DNA of 40,842 bases from an uncultured Bacilli bacterium (GTDB lineage: Bacteria > Bacillota_I > Bacilli_A > RF39 > UBA660). Location: NCBI GenBank assembly GCA_947627675.1, contig CANQWY010000007.1, positions 1 to 40,842 on the forward strand, given 5' to 3'. Below are positions 4,589-17,274 of the stretch, piece by piece. Numbering within the stretch: the first letter of the stretch is position 1; every line of letters starts with the position of its first letter. A model generated the notes under the pieces. It saw nothing but the letters and a program-made list of their open reading frames with translations, was not told the origin of the DNA and did not search any database. Made by a program: the position numbers and the translations under genes.

Positions 4589-4848
4589 TCAAAATAATAT
4601 AAAAGTCTAAAAAAACTCGTATCATAATATACAATTTATTTTTTTTAATTTTTAGCTTCATTTTTTCTAAAATGATTTTTACTTTTCTTATAACTTCTAT
4701 TCTTTAGTAAATTCCTTTAAATGTCATATACATCACAAAAAAATATAAAGTCTTTTTTCTTTTAGTTTCATAATTAGAATTAATAGTAATCATCTAAAAA
4801 TGTTCTTAATTTTCTTTTTTATTTAACTATAATAAAAATCCACTAGTT
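4589..4848. other. AT-rich stretch without a gene, left of the IS3 element
   Basis: No open frame with a ribosome binding site was found here. The last bases (about 4836-4848) hold one arm of the hairpin split by the IS3 insertion. Confidence 0.5.
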
Positions 4849-4873
4849 TGATATGAACCCCATTTCTTGGACA
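4849..4873 (+). repeat. IS3 left terminal inverted repeat
   Basis: This 25-bp repeat pairs with 6252-6276 and is the transposase binding and cleavage end. It ends 18 bases before the orfA start codon. Confidence 0.85.
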
Positions 4874-4891
4874 AAGGAATGAGGTTTTTAT

Positions 4892-5398
4892 ATGAGTAAA
4901 TTAAGTTATGAAGATAAGATAAATTTATATAATGATAGGAAAAGTGGTGCAAGTGTAAGCTCTCTTGCATCAAAATATAAAATTAGATGTGATGGAATAA
5001 AATATTTAATAAGATTAATTGATAAACATGGTTTTAATATACTTAGACTAAACAAAAATAAGTATTATACTCCATATCAAAAAGAACAAATTATTAATAG
5101 AGTCATAATAAATGGTGAATCTGTTTGTTCAGTAGCTATAGATGAAGGATTACTAAGTAAAGGAATGTTACAGAATTGGATTAAAAAATATAAAGAAAAT
5201 GGTTATAATGTAGTTGAAAGAAAGCGAGGGCGACAGTCAACTATGAAAGTAACCAAGAAAAAGGAAAATGAAACAGATAAAGAAAAAATTAAAAGATTAG
5301 AAGAAGAAAATTTATATTTAAAAGCGGAGCTAGAATACTCAAAAAAATTGAGAGCCGTTGTTCAAGCAAGGAAGAATCGACAACAGAAGAAAAAGTAA
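4892..5398 (+). CDS. IS3-family transposase OrfA (helix-turn-helix protein)
   Basis: The 168-residue protein is basic and holds two helix-turn-helix segments. The first (MSKLSYEDKINLYNDRKSGA onward) has SVSSLASKYKI as the recognition-helix region; the second contains SVCSVAIDEGLLSKGMLQNW. A leucine-zipper-like helix follows (EEENLYLKAELEYSKKLRAV). OrfA binds the element ends and is also the N-terminal part of the OrfAB transposase. The 3' end reads G AAA AAG TAA, a slippery string where ribosomes can shift -1 into orfB. Confidence 0.9.
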   Translation: MSKLSYEDKINLYNDRKSGASVSSLASKYKIRCDGIKYLIRLIDKHGFNILRLNKNKYYTPYQKEQIINRVIINGESVCSVAIDEGLLSKGMLQNWIKKYKENGYNVVERKRGRQSTMKVTKKKENETDKEKIKRLEEENLYLKAELEYSKKLRAVVQARKNRQQKKK

Positions 5399-6249
5399 CT
5401 GTTGTAAGTGAACTTCGGCTTACATATCCTTTAAAGATTCTTCTAAAAGTATCAGGAATAGCTAAATCAGTATATTACTATACTTTATCTAAAATAGATA
5501 AAGATGAGAAAAATAATGAAATAATAGATAAAATAAAAGAAATATTTTTCTATCATAAAGAAAGATATGGATACCGAAGAATAACATTAGAACTTAGAAA
5601 TCAAGGTTATAATGTTAATCATAAGAAAGTATATAGATTAATGGTTAAATTAGGATTAAAGCCATTAAAAAGAAATAAAAGAAAATATTCATCATATAAA
5701 GGAACAGTTGGAAAAATAGCTGATAATTTAATTGAAAGAGACTTTAATGCTAAAAAGCCAAACGAAAAATGGTATACTGATGTAACAGAGTTTAATCTAC
5801 GAGGTGAAAAATGTTATTTATCACCAATATTAGACGGATTCAATGGTGAAGTAATATCTTACAATACTTCAAAATCACCTAATCTAGAACAAATAAATGA
5901 TATGCTTAATAAAGCATTTGATAAGAATAATAATCTTGAAGGATTAATATTCCATTCAGACCAAGGATGGCAATACCAACATCAGTCATATCAACAAAGA
6001 TTAAAAAATCAAGGAATAAAACAAAGTATGTCTAGAAAAGGAAATAGTATGGATAATGGAATGATGGAAAATTTCTTTGGTATTTTAAAAACAGAAATGT
6101 TTTATGATCAAGAAGATAAATATAAAACATTAGATGATTTAATAAAAGCAATAGATGACTATATTTATTATTACAACTATGATAGAATTAAAGTAAAATT
6201 AAAAGGACTGTCACCTATAAATTATAGGTTGCAATCCTTAAATAATTAA
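5395..6249 (+). CDS. IS3-family transposase OrfB (DDE integrase domain), made by -1 frameshift
   Basis: The frame is -1 relative to orfA and is entered near the AAAAAG run at 5390-5395; no good start codon lies at its beginning. It opens VTVVSELRLTYPLKILLKVS, continues with the HTH_21 region (YGYRRITLEL) and then the rve/DDE core. The catalytic acidic residues are seen in WYTDVTEF, HSDQGWQY and MENFFGILKTE. The full stretch is about 284 residues. Starting only at the internal ATG (5641) would remove the conserved N-terminal part. Confidence 0.88.
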   Translation, partial: VTVVSELRLTYPLKILLKVSGIAKSVYYYTLSKIDKDEKNNEIIDKIKEIFFYHKERYGYRRITLELRNQGYNVNHKKVYRLMVKLGLKPLKRNKRKYSSYKGTVGKIADNLIERDFNAKKPNEKWYTDVTEFNLRGEKCYLSPILDGFNGEVISYNTSKSPNLEQINDMLNKAFDKNNNLEGLIFHSDQGWQYQHQSYQQRLKNQGIKQSMSRKGNSMDNGMMENFFGILKTEMFYDQEDKYKTLDDLIKAIDDYIYYYNYDRIKVKLKGLSPINYRLQSLNN

Positions 6250-6251
6250 AC

Positions 6252-6276
6252 TGTCCAACTTTTGGGGTTCAGTTCA
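6252..6276 (+). repeat. IS3 right terminal inverted repeat
   Basis: This is the inverted copy of 4849-4873, starting 2 bases after the orfB stop codon. The GTT after it matches the GTT before the left end. Confidence 0.85.
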
Positions 6277-6369
6277 GTTTAACTAGTGGTTTTTGACTAA
6301 GCCCTATAAGGGCTGTTACTGGCAACTCCCACATGGGAGTTTTTTGATTTGCCAATCGCCTTTGTCACT

Positions 6370-6852
6370 CTAGCAACCCTTAAAAGGGTCCTCGTATTCT
6401 TTCACACTTCTTTTATCTTGTAGCATATCTTCAATTTCTTGCTCTCTTATATATTTTTTTATTGTTTGCTTGTTTAGTCAAACTGTACTAACATAATATC
6501 CTCTTGCCCAAAATGTTCTTTGTCCATATTTATATTTTAAATTGGCATGGTTCTCAAATATCATTAGTGCACTTTTTCCTTTTAGATATCCCATAAATTG
6601 TGATACACTTAATTTAGGTGGTATTTTTACAAGCATGTGTATATGATCTATACATGCATGGGCTTCTATTATTTCCACCTCTTTATATTCACATAATCTT
6701 CTTAGTATTATTCCAATGTCTCTTCTCAATTTCCCATATACTGCTTTTCTTCTATATTTTGGTATAAATACTATATGATATAGGCAGTTATATTTTGTAT
6801 GAGACAATTGGCTTTCATCAATGTCTTTAGACTTCGTTTTTGCTTTTAACAT
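6370..6852 (-). pseudogene. tnpA: IS200-type Y1 transposase TnpA, frameshifted
   Basis: The protein starts MLKAKTKSKDIDESQLSHTK and runs 124 residues to a TGA at 6478. It has the HUH metal-binding motif (IDHIHMLVKIPP) and the family stretch TFWARGYYVSTV. Intact relatives continue GxxxxxIxxYIxxQ, supplying the catalytic tyrosine. Here that part lies in another frame (KKYIREQEIEDML, then EYEDPFKGC) down to a TAG at 6370-6372. A premature stop and a 1-base shift therefore separate the HUH domain from the tyrosine helix, and the gene should be inactive in transposition. The SD and ATG lie inside a long inverted repeat. Confidence 0.85.
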
Positions 6853-6922
6853 ATAAATCTCCTTCTGTTTTTTATTTTGATTGGCAAATCATTTTTATTA
6901 TAACAGAAGGAGATTTATATGT
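6849..6922 (-). promoter_or_regulatory. 21-bp perfect inverted repeat hiding the tnpA ribosome binding site
   Basis: Positions 6849-6869 are the exact reverse complement of 6902-6922, with a 32-nt loop. The left arm contains the tnpA Shine-Dalgarno sequence and start codon. In the tnpA mRNA both would be paired, repressing translation. IS200 itself is known to use a leader hairpin that blocks the tnpA ribosome binding site. The loop contains GATTGGCAAATC (6879-6890), whose reverse complement occurs at 6346-6357. Confidence 0.75.
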
Positions 6923-6970
6923 TTCCTGGCGGGCGGAGCACTTTACTATTCTCACCAGCTTAGCTGGTGG

Positions 6971-7006
6971 TTTTATTATGCAAAACTGATGTTTTGCATA
7001 ATAAAA
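6971..7006. terminator. 16-bp perfect palindrome, element end hairpin or bidirectional terminator
   Basis: Arms 6971-6986 and 6991-7006 pair perfectly around a TGAT loop, with A/T-rich outer ends. It can serve as the IS200 left-end hairpin that shields tnpA from outside transcription, or as the terminator of the collagen-like gene to its right. Confidence 0.5.
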
Positions 7007-16905: not shown

Positions 16906-17274
16906 CTATTTAACTTCTACTGTTGCTCCAGCTTCTTCAAGCTTAGCTTTAATTTCATTAGCTTCATCAACAGAAATATTTTCTTTTACAACACCATTGT
17001 TATCAACAATATCTTTTGATTCTTTTAAACCAAGTCCAGTAATTTCTTTAACTACTTTAATTACTCCAACTTTAGCGGCACCTGCATCTGTAATAGAAAC
17101 AGTTACTTGACTAGGTGCAGCTTCAGCAGCACCAGCAGCTGGAGCTGCAGCAACAGCAACTGCTGATGGATCTACTCCGAATTCCTCCTTCATAGCATCT
17201 ACTAATTCTTTAATTTCTAAAAGATTCATTTCTTTTAATGCACTAATAAAATCATCTTTATTTAATTTTGCCAT
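16906..17274 (-). CDS. rplL: 50S ribosomal protein L7/L12
   Basis: The 122-residue acidic stalk protein recruits translation GTPases to the ribosome. It starts MAKLNKDDFISALKEMNLLE, has the Ala-rich flexible hinge (AVAAAPAAGAAEAA) and the C-terminal domain with GLGLKESKDIVD. It follows rplJ by 25 nt and is cotranscribed with it. The start is backed by GGAGG in the gap. Confidence 0.97.
   Translation of the reverse strand: MAKLNKDDFISALKEMNLLEIKELVDAMKEEFGVDPSAVAVAAAPAAGAAEAAPSQVTVSITDAGAAKVGVIKVVKEITGLGLKESKDIVDNNGVVKENISVDEANEIKAKLEEAGATVEVK

Follow-up and report, generated by a model that had tools for sequence, protein, structure and literature searches.

An IS150-type insertion sequence of Bacilli found at the apices of unrelated, mostly terminator-like hairpins

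Known hairpin-targeting elements and the IS3-family element of the window

Insertion sequences (ISs) that target hairpins are, as such, already known. Targeting of REPs has been established for IS1397 and ISKpn1 of the IS3 family and for members of other families, and ISPsy8 duplicates 3 bp on the axis of symmetry of a predicted hairpin (PMC1525189). IS1272/TnSha1, of the IS1182 family, inserts into terminator hairpins (several of them confirmed by RNA-seq) with no preference for a primary sequence; it cuts in the stem, deletes the hairpin in part and produces no target-site duplication (TSD) (PMC4923244). IS1630, an IS30-family element, is reported to target inverted repeats and to leave long duplications (16–26 bp in PMC3317919). 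The element studied here shares with IS1397, ISKpn1 and ISPsy8 the insertion into palindromes with a short TSD, and with the first two also its family; however, whereas each of those elements uses one repeated family (REP/PU), its own targets have no sequence in common. Like IS1272/TnSha1, it hits hairpins without sequence preference, but with a transposase of a different family, and it is set apart from IS1630 by family and by a duplication of 3 bp rather than a long one. The combination of an IS3/IS150-type transposase, a 3–4-bp TSD, insertion at the apex and the lack of a common target sequence distinguishes it from each of these systems; in the literature searched we found no IS3/IS150 element described as targeting the centre of loops independently of their sequence.

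The window, by which we mean the whole analysed stretch of 40,842 nucleotides (GenBank assembly GCA_947627675.1, contig CANQWY010000007.1, from an uncultured Bacilli bacterium), contains a complete copy of this element inserted in an IS200-like element (Table 1). Profile searches identify its OrfB as an IS3 transposase (NF033516, E = 2e-98), 51% identical over 279 aa to InsK of Escherichia coli IS150, on which grounds we class the element as IS150-type; it also resembles IS150 in its end motif and in its 3-bp TSD. The ends are TG...CA imperfect inverted repeats, the TSDs of the element and its relatives measure 3–4 bp, and the flanks in the window read AATAAAAATCCACTAGTT on the left (up to 4848) and GTTTAACTAGTGGTTTTTG on the right (from 6277). 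Of the two overlapping frames, OrfB lies at −1 relative to OrfA across an A7 run, and the arrangement of the frames, together with what is known of the IS3 family, points to a −1 frameshift at this run as the probable route from OrfA into OrfB. A search of the element's own genome, a metagenome-assembled one that breaks at repeats, recovered only fragments and copies at contig ends.

Table 1. Features of the IS3-family element and of the IS200-like element that it splits (positions in the window)
Feature	Position	Strand	Remarks
IS200-like element split by IS3	4830..7004	-	approximate outer limits
Interrupted hairpin, left arm	4840..4848	.	CCACTAGTT; includes TSD
TSD, left copy	4846..4848	.	GTT
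IS3-family, IS150-type insertion sequence	4849..6276	+	1428 bp; ends TGATATGAACCCC...GGGGTTCAGTTCA
Inward hairpin and T run, IS left end	4855..4889	+	terminator-like by folds; over likely OrfA ribosome-binding site
OrfA	4892..5398	+	168 aa; HTH_Tnp_1
A7 slippery run (A AAA AAA)	5341..5347	+	candidate site of OrfA −1 shift into OrfB frame
OrfB frame	5341..6249	+	302 aa; rve/DDE
Inward antisense hairpin and T-rich stretch, IS right end	6201..6240	-	terminator-like; within OrfB 3′ end
TSD, right copy	6277..6279	.	GTT
Interrupted hairpin, right arm	6281..6289	.	AACTAGTGG
IS200-like TnpA, Y1 transposase	6478..6852	-	PF01797, NF033573
Left-end hairpin of IS200-like element	6953..6969	.	CACCAGC TTA GCTGGTG

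The split hairpin and its empty sites

Removal of the IS3 and one GTT yields AATAAAAATCCACTAGTTTAACTAGTGGTTTTT, and the palindrome that the earlier note had seen restored in this way is a hairpin with perfect 9-bp arms, CCACTAGTT-T-AACTAGTGG, around a single T. The element that was hit belongs to the IS200/IS605 family, with a Y1 TnpA and a subterminal hairpin at each end, the right one being the split palindrome; its portion to the right of the IS3 was matched in 49 of the 291 genomes of the bacterial family. At the matching end, five loci in relatives (L126, L127, L129, L130 and L133) carry AATAAAAATCCACTAGTTTAACTAGTGGTTTTT uninterrupted and identical over the hairpin, and at three others (L131, L134 and L138) the right-end hairpin differs by one or a few bases. 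These uninterrupted hairpins identify the split palindrome as the hairpin that marks the right end of this IS200-like element, conserved in relatives, so that the empty site is known beyond mere reconstruction. They bear out the proposal that the IS3 sits in the loop of an IS200-type end hairpin and supply the empty end that this proposal had called for. The likeness that had been drawn to the CACCAGC/GCTGGTG hairpin at the opposite end holds for the hairpin form, which both ends have, but not for the sequences, which differ. Judged against the empty sites, the window site keeps both its GTT duplication and the complete hairpin, unlike the insertions of IS1272/TnSha1.

A chance palindrome at the window site was considered as well and is ruled out by the empty sites in relatives.

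The TnpA of the IS200-like copy in the window ends early, at a TGA in codon 125 where the relatives have a Gly, and is without the downstream KKYIREQ helix, which we take to carry the catalytic Tyr. Given this early stop, the copy probably cannot move by itself. At another locus (L137), what appears to be one terminus of an IS3 relative (GGGGTGCAGTTCA) abuts the IS200 right-end hairpin at its loop shortly before the contig ends, which is suggestive of a related IS3 in the loop of the same hairpin. At L127, an IS200-like copy lies head to tail against a left-end hairpin (ATGCAAAACTGATGTTTTGCAT) resembling that of another copy, to the left of the IS200 right end.

Target sites of near relatives and how they might be chosen

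Scanning the genome collection, we retrieved 79 loci with relatives of the window IS3, nearly all with an OrfB 83–96% identical to it, of which 54 sites, the window included, had both ends and enough flank to be analysed. Most of the rejoined sites are built like a rho-independent terminator: a stem of two matching arms with the TSD in its loop, preceded by an A run and followed by a T run. Under a strict test that places the hairpin apex at most 3 nt from the insertion and asks for at least 8 pairs, 34 of the 54 insertion sites have an apex at the insertion, as against 119 of 1510 control positions (8%) lying 15–70 nt away from the insertion sites themselves (Fisher p = 8.5e-23, the control positions being mutually dependent). 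Likewise, 49-nt stretches at the rejoined sites fold with a mean energy of −9.6 kcal/mol, against −3.9 kcal/mol at random positions within those loci, and an ungapped palindrome score of at least 20, the background frequency of which is about 0.2% of positions, is reached by 33% of the sites at offset 0 and by almost none beyond 8 nt. We found no similarity between the flanks of any two of the 54 sites, and hence no single target family of the REP type. Complementarity between positions −k and +k is higher within sites than between them at several stem positions; about 9–16 positions from the centre the sites have an A/T-rich composition in common, so that complementarity there is partly one of composition.

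About a third of the near relatives fail the strict test, some of which have larger-loop hairpins by eye; four (L077, L079, L098 and L107) lack the look of a terminator and are inserted away from any clear hairpin apex. The preference for hairpins is thus strong but not absolute, with a minority of copies off the apex. The habit of inserting into palindromes that the earlier note had suspected is supported and is broader than proposed: rejoined flanks of most other copies form hairpins, and the copies at non-palindromic sites that would speak against it do exist but as a minority, among the near relatives just named and among distant ones (below). Its narrower suggestions stand in part. A palindrome of another transposon is the target in the window, but the usual target is the loop of terminator-like hairpins of unrelated sequence; insertion into palindromes is indeed shared with IS1397 and ISKpn1, but the usual targets are not REPs.

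As an observation in its own right, the L107 copy, an exception to the terminator habit, splits a sequence resembling a ParA-type P-loop (QKGGVGK), which lies to the left of the IS.

Judged by ORF calls on the rejoined sequences, the neighbouring genes are convergent at 20 insertions, tandem at 19 and divergent at none, and the remaining sites are incomplete or ambiguous; almost all copies are intergenic and 3′ of genes. At the tandem sites the two orientations of the IS occur 10:9, and the element is insensitive to the direction of the terminated gene. We consider it likely that what guides the transposase to a target is dyad symmetry or the form of the hairpin instead of a fixed sequence, and that the IS ends are joined at the apex or beside it with a 3–4-bp TSD. 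The position of most targets 3′ of genes and ahead of T runs, together with the lack of divergent intergenic insertions, would also suit recruitment by transcription termination, be it by a paused or terminating RNA polymerase or by a nascent RNA hairpin, in place of DNA symmetry. We regard such recruitment as unlikely, since it sits poorly with an unbiased orientation relative to the terminated gene, with target hairpins that have no T run (L050, L067, L094 and L124) and with insertion within 1–3 nt of the apex, RNA polymerase stalling downstream of the hairpin; the balanced orientation and the hairpins without T runs in particular favour recognition of a symmetric structure. That a short AT-rich duplex motif, common by chance in terminator loops, is what the element recognizes seems to us highly improbable: TSDs and loops are AT-rich overall, yet AT-rich triplets are ubiquitous in these genomes while the insertions lie at the centre of matched arms, the arms have no sequence in common between sites, and TSDs with G or C (GTT, ATC, CAC, AAC and CTT) occur. 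Least credible is near-random insertion followed by purifying selection that, in compact genomes, spares only copies downstream of genes at terminators, which fits the nearly exclusive intergenic, downstream placement, but selection cannot favour the apex over positions 8–70 nt away in one stretch, a broken stem being as damaging as a split loop, and the sharp peak at offset 0 excludes selection alone.

Recognition of hairpin form by the transposase is our reading of what was directly observed: where the copies lie, the empty site in relatives, the enrichment of apices, targets with no sequence in common, the gene context and the balanced orientation. Strong hairpins in these AT-rich genomes are most commonly rho-independent terminators, which would explain why most copies lie in terminator loops; in the window the IS3 struck the IS200-like element's right-end hairpin instead. 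What is recognized may be not a duplex dyad but an extruded cruciform or a single-stranded hairpin, and the selecting is presumably done by the transposase itself. Each insertion of the usual kind would split a terminator, as a rule with no gene disrupted. Folding of the left ends of relatives recovered, in nearly all copies, the inward hairpin and its T run immediately ahead of the OrfA start; the stem shows paired G-C/A-T changes (CATTTC/GAAATG versus CGTTTC/GAAACG), and in L112 and L113 the fold is retained with much of the stem altered. Going by their predicted structure, the hairpins at both IS ends could stop transcripts from outside, and in this way they may shield the transposase from such transcripts and may replace the lost stop signal, so that insertion into a terminator might leave termination intact.

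Distant relatives and E. coli IS150

A class-wide protein search extended the set to relatives with as little as about 35% identity in OrfB, many of which lie in complete genomes. We counted distant sites only if they had IS150-type ends or ends set by comparison of copies (for single copies the ends are less certain), and left out single distant loci where automatic end-calling gave spurious ends. Among distant IS150-type relatives so delimited (OrfB 35–61% identical), 25 of 33 sites pass the strict apex test, against 75 of 725 controls, and 28 of 33 do so with the apex allowed at 4 nt. Exceptions are two of the three copies in G636 (L187 and L189) and a copy in G389 (L224).

In E. coli, 15 of 20 sampled IS150 records, from chromosomes and plasmids (copies L225 and L227–L245), adjoin hok/mok-type genes, many of these copies having a single hokA site in common, which leaves about eight distinct insertion points. 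In the hok/sok loci IS150 lies in a hairpin that, on the opposite strand, reads as the Sok terminator. IS150 differs here from the window IS3 and its near relatives: its insertion point is often about 8–9 nt off the apex and the targets sampled for it cluster in one locus family, whereas theirs is the centre of unrelated hairpins. Two IS150 insertions in hokC, at 16,972 and 16,989, arose in an evolution experiment and were classed under inactivation of redundant functions (PMC5419217). These two lie on opposite sides of the apex of the Sok-terminator hairpin, and target bias offers an alternative reading of them. Other positions from that source were dropped, as the genes in most of the corresponding REL606 stretches did not agree with the published table, the coordinates differing or the rows having been misread.

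Targeting of hairpin or cruciform apices irrespective of sequence could tentatively be regarded as ancestral to the entire IS150 branch within the IS3 family, a generalization that we think rather less likely than not. If true, it would explain insertions into terminators across Bacilli and the recurrence of IS150 in E. coli hok/sok loci, evolution experiments included, and perhaps the REP insertions of IS1397 and ISKpn1. A common IS group would gain a testable structural targeting rule, and repeated IS150 insertions in type I toxin–antitoxin loci during E. coli evolution experiments would have an explanation in mutational bias. Insertion at the end of a gene, with a replacement terminator supplied, suggests a low-harm way for mobile DNA to spread, and a transposase that chooses hairpin apices regardless of sequence would be useful as a tool.

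Two further observations concern single distant relatives. The G636 copies (L185–L189, OrfB 61% identical) have GGAG(T/C)CC-like motifs in common in their flanks and lie only partly in terminator loops, and this relative possibly follows another target rule. In G389, an IS150-type relative (L223, OrfB 42% identical) is inserted just past an apparent tRNA 3′ end.
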